Program-made: the position numbers and the translations under genes | Shown here: in pieces, positions 45,472 through 62,105 of the stretch | Layout of the letters: every line of letters begins with the position of its first letter | Numbering within the stretch: the stretch's first letter is position 1 | Notes under the pieces: generated by a model | The model's input: only the letters and a program-made list of their open reading frames with translations | Databases searched by the model: none | What the model was told of the DNA's origin: nothing | Assembly (NCBI GenBank): GCA_002508705.1 | Contig: DAYL01000019.1 | Span: forward strand, 29,890-93,889 | Origin: Methanoculleus sp. UBA374 | GTDB lineage: Archaea; Halobacteriota; Methanomicrobia; Methanomicrobiales; Methanoculleaceae | Reading direction: 5' to 3' | Length of the DNA: 64,000 nt

Positions 45472-48318
45472 CTAGTTAATCTTGAACTGTTTGAGTGCCG
45501 CTTCCATCTGTTCGGCCATACTTGCCAGTTCGTGAGATGCGCTCCCGACCTCCTGCGTTGAGGCGCTGACCTCTTCTGCAAGCGCCGCCATGTCTTCGGT
45601 GCGGTCCAGGCTCTCCTTGGTCATGTGGTTGGACTCGTCCATCTTCTGCATGACATCGTTGGTGGAGCCGGCCTGGTCTTCGGTGGCCTTCGAGATCTCG
45701 GTGATGCCGTGGGCGACTACCTCCACACTGTTGACGATCCGGTTTAAGCCCACAATGACCTTGTTGACGCTCTCGATGCCTGCCTGGATCTCCTGATGAG
45801 ACGCCTGCATCGAACCGGTGGTCTTCTCGGTGCTGGCCTGGATCGTCCGGATCAGGTCCTCGATATCCTGGCTCGCACGCTTGGACTCCCCGGCAAGGTT
45901 CCGGATCTCGCCTGCGACCACGGCGAATCCACGACCGTGCTCTCCGGCGCGGGCGGCCTCGATTGCGGCGTTCAACGCAAGGAGGTTTGTCTGGTTGGCA
46001 ATGTCGGCGATCAACTTGACGATATTGTTGATCTCCCGCATCTGGTTGTTGAGGGTGCTGATCTCGTCTACGGTCTGCTTGGAGATCCCCTCAACAAGCT
46101 GCATCTTCTTCGCCGCGACTTCGCCGAGCGAGGCCGCTTCTTTCCCTTCTTCCGACGCCTTTGCGGCCTGGTCCATGACCTCCTGCGACGTGCTTGCGAT
46201 CTCCTCGATAGACGCCGAGAGGTCGTTGATATCCTTCCCGATCTCTTCGATCTTGTCGAGTTGCCGGCGTGCATCTTCCGACGACTGCTGTGTCGAGGTG
46301 GCAACCTGCTCGGTGGCCCGGATGATCTCGTCGGTGCTCTTGCTGACCTCTTTTGTCGTCAGGTCCACCTGGTGCCCTGTTTTTGCCACTTCTCCGAGGA
46401 GTGTGCGGATGGCGGTCAGCGAAGCGTTGTAATCGTTCTTGACGACCTGGAGCGGGTCGTCGTTTCCTGCATTCACAAACGCCGTCAGGTTGCCCTGTGC
46501 CATGGCGGCGAGTGCTTCCCCAAGCTCTTCGGCGCTTTCGGCGAGTCTCTCTTTCTCCTGCTTTGCAGTCTCCATCAGGTTTTTAACCTGCTCTTCTCTC
46601 TCCCGCTGCTCCGTGATATCGTTGTAGACGGTGAGAACCGAGTCCAGATTGCCGGTACGGTTGAGGAGCGGGATGTTGTGCCGATCAAGGAGGTAGGTGC
46701 CGGCCGGGAACTCTATTGCTGCCTCTCCGTGGCTTGCCTGCCGTGTCCGTATAGTGTCGAGAATCCCCTGTCCCGACTGGGAACGGTATTTGAAGTCCTG
46801 TGTGGTGAGCCTCGACGCCTGGTCTTCGGTGTACCCCGAGAGTTTCAGGAACGCCTTGTTTGCCATCTTCAGGGTCGCATCAGGGTTCCAGAGGAGGATC
46901 GGCATCGGGTTCTCCTGAACCATGACGTCCGTCTGTTCCTGCAGTTCCTTGATCTCTTCCATCTCTTCCTGCTGTTTGGTCCAGTCGTTCCAGACGTAGA
47001 AGGCCATCTCGATCTCGCCTTTCTTGTCGAGGATGGGGATGGCGTTCAGGGTGAGGTATTTCTTCACGCCGTCGGGCCACTTGACCATGACGTCGCTTCT
47101 GGCGAGTTTTTTCGTCTCGTAGCAGGTGTAGAAGTCCACGCCGTTGAGGATGGTGATGTCGTAGTCGTAGAGTTTCTTTGCAAGGGTCTCTTCCCGGGTC
47201 CCCCGCCACATCCGGACGTACTCGTCGTTAATGTCGATCCGGCTCTTGTCCGAGCGGAGCGTCGCGATTGCAAGCGGGTTCTGCTTGATCATCGCATCCA
47301 CCCGGTATTCGGTCTTCTTGACTTCTTCCTCCTTCTCATGGAGGTCGGTCCAGTCGTTCCAGACGTAGAAGGCCATCTCGATCTCGCCCTTCTCGTCGAG
47401 GATAGGGATGGCGTTCAGGGTGAGGTATTTCTTCACGCCGTCGGGCCACTTGACCATGACATCGCTTCGTGCCGGTTTCTTCGTCTCGTAGCAGGCGTAG
47501 AAGTGCACGTCGTTGAGGATGGTGATGTCGTAGTCGTAGAGTTTCTTTGCAAGGGTCTCTTCCCGGGTCCCCCGCCACATCCGGACGTACTCGTCGTTGA
47601 TATCGATCCGGCTCTTGTCCGAGCGGAGCGTCGCGATTGCAAGCGGGTTCTGCTTGATCATCGTATCGACGCGGCGCCGTATCCGCCGGCTTTCCTCCTC
47701 CCCCTCCCGCTGCCGGGTGAGATCGTTGTAGATGATGAGGATGCTCTCGATCTCGTTCTTCTCGTCGAGAAGCGGAATGCCATACTGCTCAAGTGTATGG
47801 GTCCCCGAGGGTAATTCGACGACGACTTCCCCGTACACGCGTTTTCTCTCCCGGATGGCCTGCCGGAGGCCGGAACCATTCAGTGAGAGTATCTTGAAGT
47901 CCGAGAGTCTCCTTGAGAGCACCTGCCCCTCCGGGATCCCGCTCATCTCGGCATAAGCAGCGTTTGCCAGGGTAATTTTGAACTGCGGGTCGACAACCAG
48001 GATGGGCATAGGGTTTTCCTGGACGATCGTCTCGGACCGCTGCCGGGCGGCTCCTGCCGCCTCCAGTCTGTTCTGGAGGTCCCGCTTCTCCTCCTGCGTC
48101 TTCTCAAGCAGCGCATTAATCGAAACTGCGAGCGGCCGAAACTCCTCCGGAACGCCGGCAAGGTCGATCTTCGCCAAGTCGTCGCCGTCGATCCCTGCGT
48201 GGAGCGCACCTTCGATGGCCTCCGGCAGTACCACCGGCCCCTGTTCTATCTTCTGTCCTGCAGTACCCGGCACAATCGGCCCGGTGAATAGTGCTTTCCT
48301 TCCAGGTTTATCGGTCAT
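45472..48318 (-). CDS. soluble methyl-accepting chemotaxis protein with four PAS domains
   Basis: A 948-residue receptor. It has no membrane segment, so it is a cytoplasmic sensor. PAS domains lie at about residues 95-205, 216-335, 339-460 and 470-600; then a coiled-coil linker and the signalling hairpin, whose tip is recognisable in [23 protein letters not shown] two and three are near-identical copies (see the repeat entry). Methylatable Glu/Gln sites are expected in the flanking helices. It starts 3 bp after parA ends and precedes cheW and cheR. Ligand unknown; PAS domains suggest redox, haem, flavin or small-molecule sensing. Confidence 0.95.
46981..47672 (-). repeat. in-frame tandem duplication of a PAS-domain unit (369-bp period)
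   Basis: The block beginning at 46981 recurs 369 bp (123 codons) further on, at 47350. The two copies match almost base for base over about 320 bp; in protein about 107 residues align with roughly six changes. Flanking linkers differ. This is a recent duplication or one kept alike by gene conversion. Confidence 0.93.
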
Positions 48319-54417: not shown

Positions 54418-55113
54418 CTACCTGCCCGGGATGCCCACGTGGCCCGGGAGTTCGGAAAACGCTGCAAGGACGATATCCACCTCGATCTCCGCCGGCCGGC
54501 TCTGCCGCCAGTCGCCGTAGGCGGCAAACGCCGTCGTCATGCCTAGGTGCCTTCCCGGGGCGATGTCGCGGACCAGGCTGTCGCCGACCATTATCGCCTC
54601 CGCCGGGGCCGCATTGAGCCGCCGGAGGGCATAAATAAGGGAGTCCGGTTCCGGTTTTCGTTTTCCCGATATATCCGGGGTCACCACGGTCTCGAAGTAA
54701 TCGATGAGCCCGGTTTTATTGAGCCGCCGACGCGCCTGGAACGTCTCCGCGTCGGTGACGACCGCGAGCCCGATCCCGGCGTCCGCGAGGCGCCGGAGCG
54801 TCTCTTCGACGCCCGGATACGCCTCGACCATATCGAGTTTCACGTCCTCATAGGTGCGGCAGCAGACGTCGAACGTCCCGGGCTCGTACACCCCGAGGTC
54901 TCTGAGATAGTCGCGGATGTTTCTATGGTCCTCGAACCCGTACGTCCCCCGGAGAAACTGCGAAAAGAGCGTTTCAGGGTCCCCGGTCCCGAGGTAGTCG
55001 ACCACGCACCGGCATGCCTCCCGCTTTGCTCCGACGAAGTCAAAGAGCGTGTTGTCCATGTCGCAGAGGACCGCCGTTACTTTCTTATGCCGAGTGCCGC
55101 AAGTCGCCTGCAT
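54418..55113 (-). CDS. HAD-superfamily phosphatase
   Basis: A 231-residue subclass IA HAD hydrolase. Motif I is LCDMDNTLFDF (nucleophile and acid-base Asp), motif II VVTDAE (Asp where Thr/Ser is usual next to it), motif III Lys in GKRKPEPDSL and motif IV MVGDSLVRDI. A helical cap follows motif I. Its ATG at 55113 overlaps the end of the PIN-domain gene by 37 bp; no later in-frame start keeps motif I, so the overlap appears genuine. Third gene of the CARF-PIN-HAD cassette. Substrate unknown; phosphoglycolate or nucleotide phosphates are possible. Confidence 0.88.
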   Translation of the reverse strand: MQATCGTRHKKVTAVLCDMDNTLFDFVGAKREACRCVVDYLGTGDPETLFSQFLRGTYGFEDHRNIRDYLRDLGVYEPGTFDVCCRTYEDVKLDMVEAYPGVEETLRRLADAGIGLAVVTDAETFQARRRLNKTGLIDYFETVVTPDISGKRKPEPDSLIYALRRLNAAPAEAIMVGDSLVRDIAPGRHLGMTTAFAAYGDWRQSRPAEIEVDIVLAAFSELPGHVGIPGR

Positions 55114-56084
55114 ATCTCCAGTTCCCTTGTGAATTCATGGTATGTCCCGTCATCCCGAAAGCGCACCTTCAGTTCGTCGAGGTCGTTGCCCTTCCCGCCG
55201 AACTCCCCGAAGACGGTGAAACCGTTGCAGCCTATAAACCCGAAGACAGCGGCCAGGTTGAAGATCAGCCGCCGGAATTCCTCTGCCGTGCAGGTCGCCC
55301 CCTCCAGTCTATATGGGCGGTCGAAGTAGAAGTACTCGAGCCCCTCGGCCATGCAGAGGTCGGCCATGTAGATATCGGCGGTGAGGAGAACCGGGAGGGC
55401 ATACCGTTCCTCCTCGAATTTCCGAAGCGCCCGAACGATGTTACGGTCGTTCTCTTCCGTCAGGTGCGTGTGGGGGCCGGGCGCTGCGATCTCCATCGCC
55501 CGGTCGCGGATGGTCCGGTACTCCTTCAGCGCGAGGTAGGCCGCTTTCCGGGACCGCTTCGTCCGCTTGTTCTCGAGTTCCCCGATGAACTCCCGCGAGC
55601 CCGGTGCGCACGCCGCCATCTCCGCGATCGTCTTCGCCGGGTACTTGCGGTTGATGGCGTAGGTGATCTCGTCCCGGACGGTATCGACGATCAGGTAGGA
55701 GGAGTGGTTGATCGCCGGGTTGTTCGACGCAAAACCGTGGTAGAAAAGGTTCGTATCCAGGCCGAAGAAGACATCCTTCTTGAGCTGCCCATAGGATACG
55801 CGCATCGATTCAAAGGCGGCCTGGTTTGTGTAACGCGCGATCCCGCTTGCAAACATGCATTCCTGAAGGTCGGCGTAGGATGGAAGTTCGCCGGCGATAG
55901 GCCCGTACCCGGAGAGCCAGTTCTGGAAGGTCTCGCGCGTTGCGGGTAGTTCGAGGGCGTAGCCGGTTCCATCGGGGTGTGCGACCAGAATATCCCCCTC
56001 ATAGAGCGGATACGAAACACGGACTTCGTCGAGACTGTTGAGGAGGACCTGCACCTCGTCCTCCCGAATGACCGCGTCGTGCAT
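55077..56084 (-). CDS. PIN-domain protein, candidate CARF-linked nuclease
   Basis: A 335-residue protein from ATG 56084, which shares a base with the previous stop (TGATG). A PIN-like domain starts near residue 104: VFFGLDTNLFYHG (Asp110), then VRDEITYAI (Glu139), ENDRNIVRAL (Asp213) and LLTADIYMADL (Asp237, Asp242). This order of acidic residues fits a Mg2+ PIN ribonuclease. The N-terminal 100 residues and C-terminal 75 residues are unassigned. It is coupled to the CARF-like gene upstream and overlaps the HAD gene downstream. The function is inferred; I know of no characterised homologue. Confidence 0.72.
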   Translation of the reverse strand: MHDAVIREDEVQVLLNSLDEVRVSYPLYEGDILVAHPDGTGYALELPATRETFQNWLSGYGPIAGELPSYADLQECMFASGIARYTNQAAFESMRVSYGQLKKDVFFGLDTNLFYHGFASNNPAINHSSYLIVDTVRDEITYAINRKYPAKTIAEMAACAPGSREFIGELENKRTKRSRKAAYLALKEYRTIRDRAMEIAAPGPHTHLTEENDRNIVRALRKFEEERYALPVLLTADIYMADLCMAEGLEYFYFDRPYRLEGATCTAEEFRRLIFNLAAVFGFIGCNGFTVFGEFGGKGNDLDELKVRFRDDGTYHEFTRELEICRRLAALGIRK

Positions 56085-56596
56085 CACGGCACCCCTCTCG
56101 CATCCTCCATGATATCCCGGATCTTCTGGACCTGGCGCGGGATCATCATATACGGCTTTGCGACGTCGTCGGTGCTCTTCATGGAGAGGTAGTAGATGTG
56201 CTGGATATCGAGCCCCGCAAGTGAGACCGCGATGAGCGCCCCGGCGACCGTAACCTTCCTTCCCGAGGTGATATCGATCGCCACGCGGAGCCCCTGCCGG
56301 ATGAATTCTGCGGCAAGCGAGCGGATTGTCTGTCCGGCCCTTATAAAGTCCAATTCCGGCAGAATTTCCACATCTATTGCCGGGGTGAACCCGTATCCCT
56401 CTGAAACTACCCGGATTGCTTCGGCTGCGGTCGATGCATCTCCCGCGTAGGGCTCTTCTGTGACGATTGAGACCCGTTCGAGGCGCAACCCCTTCTCCCG
56501 CAGGACTGCATGATAAGCGTTGACGAGCGCCCACGTTGAGCGTCCCAGAAGTGTTATGTAGGCATCGCCGGAAGCGGGTGTCACGGGAGAGATCAC
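56084..56596 (-). CDS. stand-alone CARF-like (Rossmann) protein
   Basis: A 170-residue protein. AYITLLGRSTWALVNAYHAV forms a first strand and helix, RVSIVTEEPY a second strand. The key segment RVAIDITSGRKVTVAGALIA (residues 104-123) matches the CARF motif D-x-T-[SG]-G-[RT]-K followed by a small-residue helix, and DIQHIYYLSM the next strand. CARF domains sense cyclic oligoadenylates in type III CRISPR defence. No effector domain is fused; the PIN gene follows at once (TGATG). It could instead bind another nucleotide. Confidence 0.72.
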   Translation of the reverse strand: MISPVTPASGDAYITLLGRSTWALVNAYHAVLREKGLRLERVSIVTEEPYAGDASTAAEAIRVVSEGYGFTPAIDVEILPELDFIRAGQTIRSLAAEFIRQGLRVAIDITSGRKVTVAGALIAVSLAGLDIQHIYYLSMKSTDDVAKPYMMIPRQVQKIRDIMEDARGVP

Positions 56597-56903
56597 TGCT
56601 CAAGACTCATCCTGCTGCTATATAGGCTTTGTCGGGAGCCCTCTTTCGGGAAAAAGATCAAAAAGTGGTAATCAGAGCACGATATCCTGTTTTCTTGGGC
56701 GGATCTGCTCAATTCGCATGTATTTTGGAACTGAATGAGATGGAATGCGGGATCGTGACGGCATTTCACTGCCGGGGTGCTTAAACAAAGCCTTTGATGC
56801 TAAAGAAATCGCAAAATACCGCAAAATATTTGGTAAATCTTTTATGATCCATACCCCCACAGTGGTATAAGAGCGCGAAAATACCCGGGAGAGATTCTGG
56901 CAC
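56597..56903. other. gene-free AT-rich intergenic region
   Basis: About 307 bases between divergent units. It holds a short direct repeat (CGCAAAATA twice, near 56808-56828). It probably carries promoters for both the CARF cassette and the 56904 gene. The minus-strand frame that crosses it is not convincing as a gene. Confidence 0.4.
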
Positions 56904-57509
56904 ATGGAGACGAGAAAAGTACAATTACGGACACCGGCTGAGATCTGGGGACTGGCGGACCCGGATCAACAGAGGAAAGCGCGTCAGGATGCTATCGACG
57001 ACGGGGATCTGATCGAGATCACCAGGATGGGGAGGGATGCGGGCATCACCTACCCGATTGCAGTCTCGGCACGGGCCGCAGAGCGTATGGTTCCATTCCC
57101 GAATATCCCGCAGGAGACCGTCACGGAGAACTTATGGGATACTCTTCATGCATTCAGGGCCAAGGCCTTTGCCACAACAAAAGAAGAGTTTGAGTTCCAG
57201 GTCAGCCTCTACCAGAACGGGCTCGTTCCCAACCTCACCTTCAAGGCCGCGGTCTCGCCGGGAGACGACGGCGAACCGGTCATCACCATCATGCTGCCGG
57301 ACGAGGACTGGGAGACGATCGGATGCGGCTGCCGTCATAGCGCGGGCGACAGGATGCTCACCGTCGACGACGTCGCCTCGACCCTTAACTTCACTCCCGG
57401 CCGGATCCGGGAGTTCATCCGGGAGGAGCGGATCCCGGCGGTCAAGTGTGGGGGGTCCTGGCGGATCAAGCGTTCAGAACTTGAACGGATCATGAACGAA
57501 GGTTTCTGA
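56904..57509 (+). CDS. DNA-binding protein with C-terminal excisionase-type helix-turn-helix
   Basis: A 201-residue protein. The last 50 residues are a MerR/AlpA-like winged helix (MLTVDDVASTLNFTPGRIRE and IPAVKCGGSWRIKRSELERI), as found in excisionases and in regulators of mobile elements. The N-terminal 140 residues (from DLIEITRMGRDAGITYPIAV) recall the DUF6573-like region of mobile elements; the match is weak. A pair of Cys sits in GCGCRHS. Unlinked to an integrase here. Confidence 0.65.
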   Translation: METRKVQLRTPAEIWGLADPDQQRKARQDAIDDGDLIEITRMGRDAGITYPIAVSARAAERMVPFPNIPQETVTENLWDTLHAFRAKAFATTKEEFEFQVSLYQNGLVPNLTFKAAVSPGDDGEPVITIMLPDEDWETIGCGCRHSAGDRMLTVDDVASTLNFTPGRIREFIREERIPAVKCGGSWRIKRSELERIMNEGF

Positions 57510-57875
57510 CCGGTTCATATGGGACGGCGGAAAAACAATAGTTTTTCTGAACGTTTCTGTCGTTCGCCAGCGGTTCTGCCAGTTGCCATACCGCCTGTCC
57601 GGATAACCGTCAGGCGTTTTTCCGGGCATGGATCTGCCGCACTGTCCGGTCCTGTATGATATCCGTTCCGGTGCCTCGCATCTCATCTGGCCTGGTCCCG
57701 ATGTCGTTTCCATCTGTTTGTCAGGGATATGCGCTACCTGGGCGTCGGGGCAGGAGCCCCGGGAAGAGGGTGACCCCCCCATATGCTCTCCTGAAATATG
57801 ATCTATTTAAATTTTTTCTTATTGATAAGACACATAAAACAAACATTTTTAATTTTTAGACGTATAGTTCTCTTA
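57510..57875. other. intergenic region with promoter of the HEAT-repeat gene
   Basis: About 365 bases. The first 250 show nothing clear. From 57780 the DNA turns markedly AT-rich (CTATTTAAATTTTTTC, then AACATTTTTAATTTTTAG), likely the promoter region of the next gene. Confidence 0.5.
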
Positions 57876-60800
57876 ATGTGCGTCGAGGGCCCACGAGTAT
57901 TCCCGGACTGTTCTTTCGCCTATTCCATGGCGGGTATCGGCGATTTTACGGCAAAACCGTTAGATTGCGAAGGTGGGGAGGTGCCCCATCCCGATGACCG
58001 TGCCAGTTTCGGGATATCGTGTGGCCTCTGGCGTGCGATCTTCTGGGGCACCTGTATTATTCTCCTTTTTCTTGGAGCGGAGGTACTGGGGGTGTCTTCG
58101 GTGCCGGCGATCGATGCAGCATGCCCCATTGTATGCTTTCCCGGGCTCTTCGGGCCGAATGGATCTTCGTTCCTCAGGTACCGGATGAAGAGGTCCGCCG
58201 AAGGGGGCGGCAAGGAGGACGATTCGGGGGGTCACGACCCTGACCCTGGCGCCTCCCTGCCGGATTCCAGTGCGCCGGACGAACCCGCCCGTGCTGACGG
58301 CGAAGAAAATATTCTCAATAGATTTGAAAAGATCCCCGAGGCCCTTCGGCAGTTTGACAGCCTCATCTACGGGGAGAAACCGGGTGCGGACCTTTCTTCC
58401 GGCAAACCGATCGAAGCGGAGAGGCTCCCTGCCCTTCCTCCACGGCACAGCCCGGATGACGGCGCGTCCGACGACCCGGACAATTTTCCGGAGCGTTCCA
58501 TGGATGATCCGCTCCCGGTGAACTCCAAACCCTTCAAACCGCCCGACTCCGACGATAAGGGCGATGAACCGTCTCTTCCGGGCCTCGTCCGTGATGCCTG
58601 CCTGCCGGAGGATGAGTCTGGTCCTGACGAACCTGCGGTAGTTTCTGTCGTGGAAGAGCGTCCCATTGCGTCACTCGTCGACGACCTCGGCAGTGACGAT
58701 GCCGGTATCCGTGAACGCGCCGCACATGCCCTCGCAGAGCGCGGAATCGACGCCGTGGCTCCTCTGATCCGGGCTCTTGCTCTTGTGGACGACGGGAGGC
58801 GGTGGTGTGTCGCCGAAGCCCTTGCCCTGATCGGCGAAGATGCAATTCCGGCATTGATTGCTGCACTTGGAGATCCCGGGACGCAGGCAGGAGCGGCTGC
58901 AACGCTTGTGCGTGTCGGCGAACCTGCCGTGCCGTCGCTCATCGCAGTGCTTGCCGGCACCGACGACGAAGTGCAGTTCGGTGCCCTCTATGCCCTCCAT
59001 GAAATCGGCGAGGCGGCTGTCCCTGCCCTTGTCGATGCTCTCGATGCGCCCGACGGGGGCATCCGGAGGGCTGCCGCTTCTGTTCTTCGGGAACTCGGGT
59101 GGAAGGCGCCTGATGAAGCCGGAACAATCCGGTATCTTATTGCCACCGAGGCGTGGCTCGATGTGGCGGAACACGGTGAAGCCGTGATCGATCCTCTCAT
59201 CCGCATCCTGCGGTCTCCGGATCGGGAGATCTGGTGGAATGCCGCCCGGACCCTCGGGGAGGTCGGCGGTGCAGCGGTCGGTCCTCTGGTCGATCTCCTG
59301 CGCGAAGCAGGTGATGAGGTGCGGCCGCTGGCGGCGATGGCACTCGCAGAGATCGGGTCTTCCGCGGTCGATCCGCTCATCCGGTTGCTTTCCGACTCCT
59401 CCCTCCGGAATACGGCGGCGGCAACCCTGATAAAGATCGGGGAGCCGGCGATAGAGGCATGTATCCAGGCCCTGGACGGCGCGGATGCGGACGTGCAGGC
59501 GGCGCTCCAAAACGTCCTCTGTGCGTTCGGCGACGCGGCGGTCCCATCTCTGATCCAGGCACTGACCTCCGATCGGTCCCGTGCTCCTGCCGCTACGATC
59601 CTGGATCGGATGGGCTGGGAGCCCTGGAGCGACACCGAACGGGCATGGTACCTGATCGCCCGGGAGGAGTGGGTGGAACTCGCCTTGATGGGTGCGCCGG
59701 CGGTCGAGCCCCTGATCCGGACGCTCAACGGCGGCGATGACCGCATACGCGGCGAAGCTGCGGCGACGCTCGGCGAGATCGGCGATCCTGCGGCTGTCGG
59801 GCCGCTCGTGGATGCCCTTGCCGACGAGGCCGTTGCCCCGGCAGTGGCGGATGCGCTCGTTGCCATCGGGAAGCCAGCCGTACCTCCGACTCTTGCGCTG
59901 CTTGAAGAGAGGACCGGTGCCGCCCTCTCGAATGCCGTCGAGGTGCTGGGCAGACTCGGGGCGGACGAAGCGGTTCCGGCACTCGTTGAACTCGTCAGGA
60001 GCGGCGGCGACCGCCTTCACCGGAAAGCCGTCGACGCCCTGGTCGGCATCGGTGCGCCTGCGATAGGCCCCCTTATCTCCCTCCTCGGCGAGGACGGCGA
60101 CGGGCACACGGGAGCAGTGGCGGCGCTCACCGGAATCGGCGACGCCTCATCCGGGTCGCTTGCCGCCGCGCTTCGCGATGAGAACGTCCTGACCCGCATG
60201 GGGGCCGCCACCGTCCTCGGGAGGCTTGGCTGGGCTCCTGCAGGAGAGGAGGAGCAGGTTGTCTACCTGATTGCGCTGCAGCGGTGGTCCGACACTCCGG
60301 CCCTCGGGGCTGCGGCCGTCGACCCCCTGGTTGCGCGGCTCGGCGATCCGGACCCCGGCGTGCAGATGGGTGCGGCGGAAGCGCTTGCCCGGATCGGGGC
60401 GCCTGCGGTACCTCCTCTGGTCCGCCTGCTCGGCGATGAGGCCGGTTCCGCGCTCGCAGGCGATACGCTGGTACGGATCGGCGAAGCAGCCGTAGATCCG
60501 CTGATCCGTGCTCTCGGCGACGATGCGCTCCGGCAGGCTGCCGCCGGGGTGCTGGTCCGGGTCGGGCGCCCCGCTGCCGGTGCGCTCGTTCCAACCCTCG
60601 GGCTTTCCGACACGGGCGAAATTACGGCAGAGATCCTGGCGGCAATGGGCGAACCTTGTGTCGATGTCCTGGTCGGTGCGCTCGGGAGCGACGACGCCCG
60701 GATCCGACAACGGGCGGGGGATGTGCTCGTCGGCCTCGGCGATATCGCTATCGGCCGGCTTATCGGAGCATTGGGGTATCCGGACGGTGCCCTCAGGATC

Positions 60801-62105
60801 GGGGTGATCGATACGCTCACCCGGATCGGCAGACCGTCGACGGCCGGCCTTATGGAAGCACTTTCGGACGAGCGCTACCGTGTGCGGCTGGGCGCGGCGG
60901 AGGTCCTTGGTAGAGCCGGCTGGGTTCCGGAGACCGGGGAGGAGACCGTCCTCTACCTGATCGCAAAGGAGCAGTGGGCCTCTGTTGCAGAGACCGGGCC
61001 CGGTGCCGTCGAACTGCTGATCCGGACGCTCAACGATCCCGACAGCGCAATCCAGATGGGTGCGGCCCGGGCGCTCGGCATGATCGGGGCTCCCGCGGTC
61101 GCGCGACTGACCGACGAACTCCGTACGGAGCAGGACGGCAGGCAGAGGAAGGCGGTCGAGGCACTCAAGTTGATCGGGGCGCCCGCGGTCGTGCCGCTCA
61201 TCGACGCCCTTCAAGACCGTGACTGGCGCATCCGCCTGGGAGCGGCGCGTGCGCTTGTCGCTATCGGGGACCCCGCGGTCGATCCGCTGGTCCGGGCTCT
61301 TCGAGAGGGCTCCCCGGCGGTCCAGATGGGAGCTGCGGCGACGCTCGGTAAGATCGGAAGCCCGACGTCCATCAAGCCGCTTACCGATGCGCTCCTGCAT
61401 GACGACTGGCGCGTGGGGCGCGTTGCGGTGCGGGCGCTCGGCATGCTGGGCGAGGCGGCAGTCGAGCCGCTTCTGTCCGTCCTCCGGGAGGGGAACGATA
61501 CGGCCTGGAGGGGTGCGGTTACGGCTCTTGTGCTGATCGGCGATGCGGCGGTGCGGCTGCTCCCCGGTGCGCTCACGGACGGGCATTTCCGTGTCCGTGC
61601 CGGGGCCGCGGATGCGCTCGACCGTCTGGGCTGGTCCCCGGAGCCGGGGGAGGAGACGGTTCGTTACCTGATCGCGAAGGAGCAGTGGAGCGATCTCGCC
61701 CGGGTGGGCGAAGCGGCGGTTGAGCCGCTTGTCGCGGTGCTCAACGACCGCGACGACAGCATCCGGCGGCGGGCGGCCATGGCCCTCGGTGAATTGCGCG
61801 ACCCCCGGTCGGTCCCGGCGCTCATGACCCTCCTCCACGACGACTACTACAGCAACCGGCGAGAGGCTGCGGCGGCGCTCGTTGCGATCGGAGCCCCTGC
61901 CATGGCTTCCGTCGTCTCCGCTCTCGGCGACGGGGACGGCGATGTCAGGAAGCGTGCGGCGGATGTGCTGGCCGAGATCGGGGATGCACGGGCGGTCGAG
62001 GCTCTCAGGAATATCTTCAACGATGAGGACTGGTATGTCAGGAAGGCTGCCGAAGACGCGGTGGAGCGGATCCGGGAGCGGACCGGCGGTGCATCGGGCG
62101 AGTAG
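57876..62105 (+). CDS. giant HEAT-repeat protein, membrane-anchored
   Basis: From ATG 57876 it has 1409 residues; an earlier ATG (57798) lies inside the AT-rich promoter and a later one (57927) is also possible. A hydrophobic segment (about 54-76, IFWGTCIILLFLGAEVLGV) suggests a membrane anchor. An acidic, Pro/Ser-rich stretch to about residue 260 follows. Then about 30 PBS-lyase-type HEAT repeats of 31 residues (such as AVDPLIRLLSDSSLRNTAAA) run to the end. Every five or six repeats are interrupted by a linker of form GW-x-P-x-x-x-EE-T-V-x-YLIA-x-E-x-W, near 59098, 59608, 60225, 60912 and 61624. HEAT arrays are scaffolds; the partner is unknown. Confidence 0.88.
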   Translation: MCVEGPRVFPDCSFAYSMAGIGDFTAKPLDCEGGEVPHPDDRASFGISCGLWRAIFWGTCIILLFLGAEVLGVSSVPAIDAACPIVCFPGLFGPNGSSFLRYRMKRSAEGGGKEDDSGGHDPDPGASLPDSSAPDEPARADGEENILNRFEKIPEALRQFDSLIYGEKPGADLSSGKPIEAERLPALPPRHSPDDGASDDPDNFPERSMDDPLPVNSKPFKPPDSDDKGDEPSLPGLVRDACLPEDESGPDEPAVVSVVEERPIASLVDDLGSDDAGIRERAAHALAERGIDAVAPLIRALALVDDGRRWCVAEALALIGEDAIPALIAALGDPGTQAGAAATLVRVGEPAVPSLIAVLAGTDDEVQFGALYALHEIGEAAVPALVDALDAPDGGIRRAAASVLRELGWKAPDEAGTIRYLIATEAWLDVAEHGEAVIDPLIRILRSPDREIWWNAARTLGEVGGAAVGPLVDLLREAGDEVRPLAAMALAEIGSSAVDPLIRLLSDSSLRNTAAATLIKIGEPAIEACIQALDGADADVQAALQNVLCAFGDAAVPSLIQALTSDRSRAPAATILDRMGWEPWSDTERAWYLIAREEWVELALMGAPAVEPLIRTLNGGDDRIRGEAAATLGEIGDPAAVGPLVDALADEAVAPAVADALVAIGKPAVPPTLALLEERTGAALSNAVEVLGRLGADEAVPALVELVRSGGDRLHRKAVDALVGIGAPAIGPLISLLGEDGDGHTGAVAALTGIGDASSGSLAAALRDENVLTRMGAATVLGRLGWAPAGEEEQVVYLIALQRWSDTPALGAAAVDPLVARLGDPDPGVQMGAAEALARIGAPAVPPLVRLLGDEAGSALAGDTLVRIGEAAVDPLIRALGDDALRQAAAGVLVRVGRPAAGALVPTLGLSDTGEITAEILAAMGEPCVDVLVGALGSDDARIRQRAGDVLVGLGDIAIGRLIGALGYPDGALRIGVIDTLTRIGRPSTAGLMEALSDERYRVRLGAAEVLGRAGWVPETGEETVLYLIAKEQWASVAETGPGAVELLIRTLNDPDSAIQMGAARALGMIGAPAVARLTDELRTEQDGRQRKAVEALKLIGAPAVVPLIDALQDRDWRIRLGAARALVAIGDPAVDPLVRALREGSPAVQMGAAATLGKIGSPTSIKPLTDALLHDDWRVGRVAVRALGMLGEAAVEPLLSVLREGNDTAWRGAVTALVLIGDAAVRLLPGALTDGHFRVRAGAADALDRLGWSPEPGEETVRYLIAKEQWSDLARVGEAAVEPLVAVLNDRDDSIRRRAAMALGELRDPRSVPALMTLLHDDYYSNRREAAAALVAIGAPAMASVVSALGDGDGDVRKRAADVLAEIGDARAVEALRNIFNDEDWYVRKAAEDAVERIRERTGGASGE

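Follow-up and report, generated by a model that had tools for sequence, protein, structure and literature searches.

A split CARF–PIN gene pair with a linked HAD hydrolase gene in Methanoculleus and related archaea, found mostly without Cas10

Introduction

What is understood of CARF effectors that contain enzyme domains comes almost solely from type III CRISPR systems, of which they form the output arm. The 2025 classification lists PIN RNases among the cyclic-oligoadenylate effectors (PMC12669027), and the type III effector Chp, which contains a HAD domain, depletes ATP (PMC12715507). A PIN-domain protein of Sulfolobus islandicus, SiRe_0806, has been solved with cyclic tetra-adenylate (cA4; PDB 9jxw and 9jxx). 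Here we describe a cassette of three overlapping genes, encoding a CARF protein, a PIN protein and a HAD hydrolase, in a stretch of 64,000 nt from Methanoculleus sp. UBA374 (GCA_002508705.1, contig DAYL01000019.1, positions 29,890–93,889), which is referred to throughout as the window.

A literature search that did not extend to the majority of subscription papers or to the CARF classification of 2020 returned no paper on a CARF–PIN–HAD cassette; searches for SiRe_0806 with CARF-PIN and for Methanoculleus with CARF found none, the sole match for CARF_m1 names CARF_m13 instead, and the matches listed for searches by gene tags were all unrelated. The accessible parts of PMC11229360 and PMC12409355 add nothing on a split CARF/PIN.

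Results

Three overlapping genes encode CARF, PIN and HAD proteins

All three leftward open reading frames were verified where a preliminary description of the window had placed them, on the minus strand (Table 1); the CARF and PIN genes share 1 bp (TGATG at 56084) and the PIN and HAD genes share 37 bp (55077–55113). An in-frame GTG at 56584 is a possible alternative start for the CARF gene and would give a protein of 166 amino acids, the same length as several relatives.

The families that the preliminary description had named were confirmed by profiles for all three proteins and, for the first two, also by predicted structure. The CARF protein matched the CARF-only profile of PADLOC CARF_m1 (PDLC01971) with an E value of 9e-61; CARF-type profiles were its sole matches of note, and Pfam returned a weak match to Csa3_N alone (E 0.002, under its cut-off). 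The PIN protein matched positions 226–457, the C-terminal half, of the 465-position CARF_PIN profile of CARF_m1 (PDLC01973; E 4e-17), with Pfam PIN_4 at E 0.07, and the third protein matched Pfam HAD_2 (E 2e-27) and, without reaching its cut-off of 170, TIGR02253 (E 3e-31, 109 bits). TAL-effector repeats formed the two best sequence rows in similarity searches; as they contained no significant single stretch they were discarded as artefacts.

The predicted structures show a Rossmann-like CARF fold in the first protein and a PIN fold in the second. The CARF model aligned with residues 1–138 of SiRe_0806 and the PIN-protein model with residues 152–418, that is, with consecutive parts of one protein solved with cA4 bound; as modelled, the CARF/PIN pair is a split form of SiRe_0806, which supports the earlier idea of a two-component CARF/PIN effector. 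The D-I-T-S-G-R-K stretch by which the CARF protein had first been recognized is motif II, and the protein has both the motif I (G-x-S) and the motif-II G-R-K of Crn1-like ring nucleases: G18-R19-S20 and G112-R113-K114 align with G9-T10-S11 and G104-R105-K106 of Sso2081. Cyclic oligonucleotide binding is predicted for this protein and RNA cleavage for the PIN protein.

Conservation bears on the residues expected to act. Across 48 PIN copies (36 from the clade of the window's cassette, four from type III loci, six haloarchaeal and two others) D110, E139, D213 and D237 were invariant (48/48); D242, also put forward in the preliminary description, is kept in only 26 of the 36 copies of the window's clade and is no catalytic candidate. 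Within the same clade each fixed position of CARF motif II (of the D-x-T-x-G-R-K kind) is kept in at least 34 of 36 copies, with S20 and K114 in 36/36 and R113 in 34/36. The HAD residues D18, D20, T120, K153 and D178 are conserved in 32 of 32.

The order of the genes, a small one first and the PIN gene second with a 1-bp overlap, also recalls a toxin–antitoxin pair of the VapBC kind, in which the small CARF protein would hold a PIN toxin inactive without any ligand. PIN domains are common toxins, VapBC rows occurred among the structural matches of the PIN protein, and an AbiEii toxin gene stands beside one haloarchaeal pair. VapBC, however, combines a DNA-binding antitoxin with a single-domain VapC, whereas in the window the partner is a CARF protein and the PIN protein has 335 amino acids with extra parts; we regard this explanation as very improbable.

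The three genes are linked and conserved as a unit

Two sets of genomes were searched: 199 from the order (order sample) and 392 from the phylum (phylum sample). A neighbourhood survey of homologues, which the preliminary description had proposed, found the partners together: in the order sample the CARF protein occurred in 58 of 199 genomes and the PIN protein in the same 58 (Fisher value 1e-51, which overstates independence as the genomes are related). The phylum sample gave PIN matches in 63 genomes and CARF matches in 69, with both in 59; in 58 of these 59 the two were adjacent, their matches no more than 743 bp apart, and the remaining genome (G259), excluded from the adjacent pairs, has its halves on different contigs, both at contig ends. 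CARF matches with E values of 1e-4 to 1e-8 in this sample had no PIN partner and are probably other CARF proteins.

Immediately after the PIN gene comes the HAD gene in 54 of the 55 order-sample genomes that could be judged, G117 being without it; three others (G154, G163 and G125) are left out of this count for contig ends or breaks at that point. Of the 43 strong pairs in the phylum sample, 15 belong to genomes outside the order sample and 11 of these 15 have the HAD gene, which follows an extra gene in G282 and is in two pieces (one frame break) in G406; it is missing in G254, G357, G381 and, for its strong copy, G420. The HAD and strong-pair counts were tallied by hand from the search tables. 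A second copy of the cassette in G406 (locus L109, contig C76) has its CARF, PIN and HAD genes each split over frames.

The closest relatives in genome contigs, 22 loci with 75–87% identity over the PIN protein, are from Methanoculleus and related Methanomicrobiales. Nonsynonymous divergence (dN) of the three genes was 0.07–0.15 against a synonymous divergence (dS) of 0.29–0.92 for six of the seven relatives compared (dN/dS ~0.13–0.30), and 0.29–0.30 against 0.88–1.73 for the seventh, L121 (dN/dS 0.18–0.34); judged by these ratios, the cassette genes are under purifying selection. The CARF gene is preceded by a promoter-like stretch, AAAGCCTATATAG, that is exact in 12 of the 13 Methanoculleus-type loci compared and has one base changed in the other (L010); its distance from the CARF GTG would suit a transcript with a short leader or none. 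The cassette is more than a chance grouping, given the 58/58 co-occurrence, the purifying selection and this conserved promoter stretch.

The PIN proteins fall into three clades

In a tree of 57 PIN proteins the HAD-linked, haloarchaeal and type III copies lie on separate, well-supported branches, although the long haloarchaeal and type III branches may attract each other; 14 rows are unlabelled, including Thermococcus-type proteins and five HAD-side copies without HAD. The CARF G-R-K motif is kept, or nearly so, in all three clades. The HAD gene was found in none of the four type III loci with PIN (L100–L103), none of the six haloarchaeal loci and none of three others (L104, L107 and L108).

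The divergent sister clade, L100–L103, lies within type III operons. In L101 the order is cas6, cas10, csm3, a cas5-like gene, one unknown gene, csm2, csm3, a csm3-like gene, CARF, PIN, csx1 and cas1. In L104 (genome G302) the pair and Cas10 share a contig, separated by ~5 kb and differently arranged, and G420 combines a type III copy (L103) with a HAD-less copy from the window's clade (L134).

Six loci (L110–L113, L158 and L159) are called haloarchaeal from the plasmid-record matches of one member, L111, the PIN copy of which has relatives on plasmids of ten genera, in 12 records that all bear haloarchaeal names; the ten listed show 46–55% identity, and two of these ten records are annotated as CRISPR-associated ring nuclease under the match. 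An AbiEii-type toxin gene (L111:7234–8031) adjoins one haloarchaeal CARF–PIN pair and an IS605 OrfB/TnpB-type gene (L110:4706–6010) lies shortly before another.

For the window's PIN protein itself no relative was found on plasmids, and none of the 53 stretches of viral contigs that matched a PIN-protein pattern was confirmed as a relative. A mobile or phage element was discarded as an explanation on these grounds and since the Methanoculleus-type neighbours are common to the loci.

The cassette is not associated with Cas10

The preliminary description had noted no CRISPR near the cassette, which our searches bore out. None of the eight tandem-repeat rows in the window resembles a CRISPR array, no Rfam family was over threshold in it, and tblastn with ten cas proteins of related type III loci gave no match there at 1e-3 (other cas types were not scanned for); these ten queries do find each other's loci. 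The window's cassette is not encoded in or beside a Cas10 locus; the divergent clade L100–L103 is.

At the level of genomes, Cas10 (detected by PF22335) was present in 19 of 199 members of the order sample and showed no association with the cassette there, occurring in 5 of 58 carriers versus 14 of 141 others (Fisher p = 1.0); 53 of the 58 carriers gave no match to Cas10, and the closest one sharing a contig with the pair was ~15 kb away. These counts support the proposed use outside type III CRISPR. The phylum sample has Cas10 in 68 of 392 genomes (67 over cut-off), including 15 of the 58 with adjacent pairs (Fisher p 0.09).

The cassette might instead be an ordinary type III ancillary effector that has been left without its neighbours and continues to respond to cyclic oligoadenylate made by a Cas10 elsewhere in the genome. 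The sister clade within type III operons and the 15 Cas10-positive genomes with adjacent pairs are in keeping with this; the association in the phylum sample is nevertheless weak despite the inclusion of type III-linked pairs, and the order-sample carriers with Cas10 are few. Further, 17 carriers, among those measured, have a main contig of about the whole (rounded) genome size, and 14 of these near-closed genomes lack Cas10 (the exceptions being G012, G041 and G310), a second Cas10 model likewise finding it in 0 of the 14. We think this explanation distinctly unlikely.

Other sources of a ligand were sought in the same 14 near-closed Cas10-negative carriers. mCpol was found in 0/14 and no SMODS match was over the cut-off of 26.5; sub-threshold SMODS matches (20–25 bits) in seven of the 14 are probably other nucleotidyltransferases and were not counted, and SMODS-type cyclases were set aside as the ligand source. 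DAC, the cyclase domain for cyclic di-AMP (c-di-AMP), was present in 14 of 14, and being widespread does not discriminate. The cassette could, as a tentative possibility, belong to a Cas10-independent archaeal second-messenger pathway, answering for example c-di-AMP or the product of an unknown cyclase and triggering RNA decay (by PIN and, in some lineages, an RNase J-like protein) together with nucleotide breakdown by HAD.

Neighbouring genes

Flanks differ between loci, so that the following counts are minima. In seven genomes the gene immediately upstream of CARF, and overlapping it, encodes an RNase J-like metallo-beta-lactamase that includes the RMMBL RNA domain. In G313 a divergent gene of this kind comes straight after HAD, making eight genomes in which one adjoins the cassette; three further loci carry such a gene farther away. 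It is likely a fourth member of the cassette in some lineages.

These neighbours count in favour of another rival, in which the CARF protein senses broken RNA with 2',3'-cyclic-phosphate ends, like the CARF domain of RtcR, and the cassette serves in RNA damage or RNA decay instead of answering cyclic oligoadenylate. Such sensing requires no cyclase, and in G254 (L114) RtcA is encoded ~1.2 kb from PIN; it was near the cassette in that genome only among the loci searched, many with short flanks. Moreover, the CARF protein matches cyclic-oligoadenylate binders and keeps both ring-nuclease motifs, and the sister clade lies within type III operons. On balance we judge broken-RNA sensing unlikely.

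McrC, in four cases with McrB, is encoded upstream of the cassette in five genomes (with a gap of 0.3 kb in G327), and a small VapC-type PIN gene stands between CARF and PIN in three. Two similar-looking genes of ~215 amino acids directly follow PIN (L139:5415–6068 and L114:4668–5312), the one in L139 having no Pfam or PADLOC match.

In Methanoculleus-type loci the common neighbours are a HEAT-repeat protein and a DUF6573–helix-turn-helix (HTH) protein. The window has the latter as a divergent gene adjoining the cassette (56904–57509; DUF6573 with an excisionase-type HTH), recurring in 15 loci including the window and a possible regulator, and the former as a protein of 1435 amino acids (57798–62105), the family of which recurs in 19 of the compared loci including the window. 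Elsewhere in the window, a 369-bp near-perfect tandem duplication (46978–47674; 95% matches) lies within an open reading frame (45472–48318) that by eye resembles a PAS/chemotaxis receptor.

Table 1. Features of the cassette in the window and of neighbouring genes in other carriers (G, genome; L, locus)
Feature	Position	Strand	Details	Genomes
CARF protein	56084..56596	-	170 aa from GTG 56596; motif I L17-G-R-S20; motif II D108-I-T-S-G-R-K114	window
PIN protein	55077..56084	-	335 aa; N-terminal domain ~1–100, PIN domain ~104–260, C-terminal part to 335; acidic D110, E139, D213, D237	window
HAD-IA hydrolase	54418..55113	-	231 aa; nearest TIGR02253; conserved D18, D20, T120, K153, D178	window
Promoter-like stretch AAAGCCTATATAG	56618..56630	-	precedes CARF gene; conserved among Methanoculleus-type loci	window
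RNase J-like genes beside cassette	L127:4893-6515, L128, L115, L119, L125, L130, L131; L118:3251-4684		called by Pfam for L127 and L118, by tblastn for others	G037, G118, G040, G013, G147, G171, G019; G313
McrBC-type restriction genes upstream	L132, L133, L148, L095, L114		called by Pfam for L133, by tblastn for others	G327, G286, G254, G432, G410
Small VapC-type PIN genes	L137:5406-5876, L138:2972-3391, L139:4033-4449			G229, G331, G282

Discussion

We favour, as the somewhat probable reading, a split CARF–PIN effector with a dedicated HAD partner, in which a nucleotide-type ligand would activate the PIN RNase as part of defence or a stress response, for the most part in the absence of Cas10. 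The McrBC genes next to five cassettes and the RNase J-like genes next to eight count in its favour, as does the sister clade within type III operons. The CARF protein would dimerize and bind a cyclic or cyclic-phosphate nucleotide between its two GRK motifs, its conserved C-terminal tail touching the N-terminal domain of the PIN protein, and ligand binding would cause the PIN domain to cut RNA in a metal-dependent reaction. The HAD enzyme may then handle phosphorylated nucleotides in the same response: the RNase J-like neighbours suggest that the PIN products are degraded further, and a nucleotidase (HAD) would then drain nucleotides. As the motif-I serine is kept in the window's clade, the CARF protein may slowly cleave its own ligand, thereby timing the response. 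A source other than Cas10 would supply the ligand in most hosts. A general role for HAD in clearing cyclic oligoadenylate, as had been suggested, does not suit its absence from the type III-operon clade, and the interpretation in the preliminary description is, as a whole, partly supported.

Several observations weigh against this split-effector reading. Residues 139–170 of the CARF model are mostly of low confidence; motif I is lost or outside match coverage in the haloarchaeal copies, and motif II is degenerate in one of two unplaced CARF copies. The neighbours shared among Methanoculleus-type loci are not evident defence genes and fit a housekeeping role equally well. Cas10 was found in 10 of the 43 strong-pair genomes of the phylum sample, and lies ~6 kb from the pair in G381 (which belongs to the wider clade), ~15 kb in G037 and ~25 kb in G041. 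Some Cas10 genes may be missed, many of the genomes being drafts. Cas1-family genes occur in 12 of the 14 near-closed Cas10-negative carriers, and CRISPR as such is mostly present; CRISPR is thus often there while the known maker of the CARF ligand was not found.

The CARF/PIN pair is conserved in archaea without a detected copy of the enzyme known to produce the CARF ligand and has a sister clade within type III operons. This raises the questions of what else CARF proteins sense and whether CRISPR borrowed or released this effector, and the occurrence of the pair in both settings makes the questions of CARF ligands and origin testable; the two-gene form lets sensor and nuclease be purified and mixed separately.

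With regard to known systems, the PADLOC-DB CARF_m1 profiles match and their labels, which we take to derive from Makarova 2020, describe no CARF–PIN–HAD cassette. The Crn1-type ring nucleases Sso2081 and Sis0811 have a motif-I threonine where the window's CARF protein has R19. RtcR is likewise a CARF protein outside CRISPR, but also has an NtrC-like AAA+ domain and an HTH (PMC4012209), neither of which was found in the 170-residue CARF protein. Chp resembles the cassette in linking CARF to a HAD phosphatase; it is, however, a single membrane protein of type III-A systems (HAD, four transmembrane helices, CARF), whereas the window has separate CARF and HAD genes beside PIN (PMC12715507). SiRe_0806 is matched in consecutive parts by the CARF and PIN proteins at 16–20% identity; it is one chain where the window has two genes, and in the window, unlike SiRe_0806, a HAD gene follows and carriers are usually found without Cas10.
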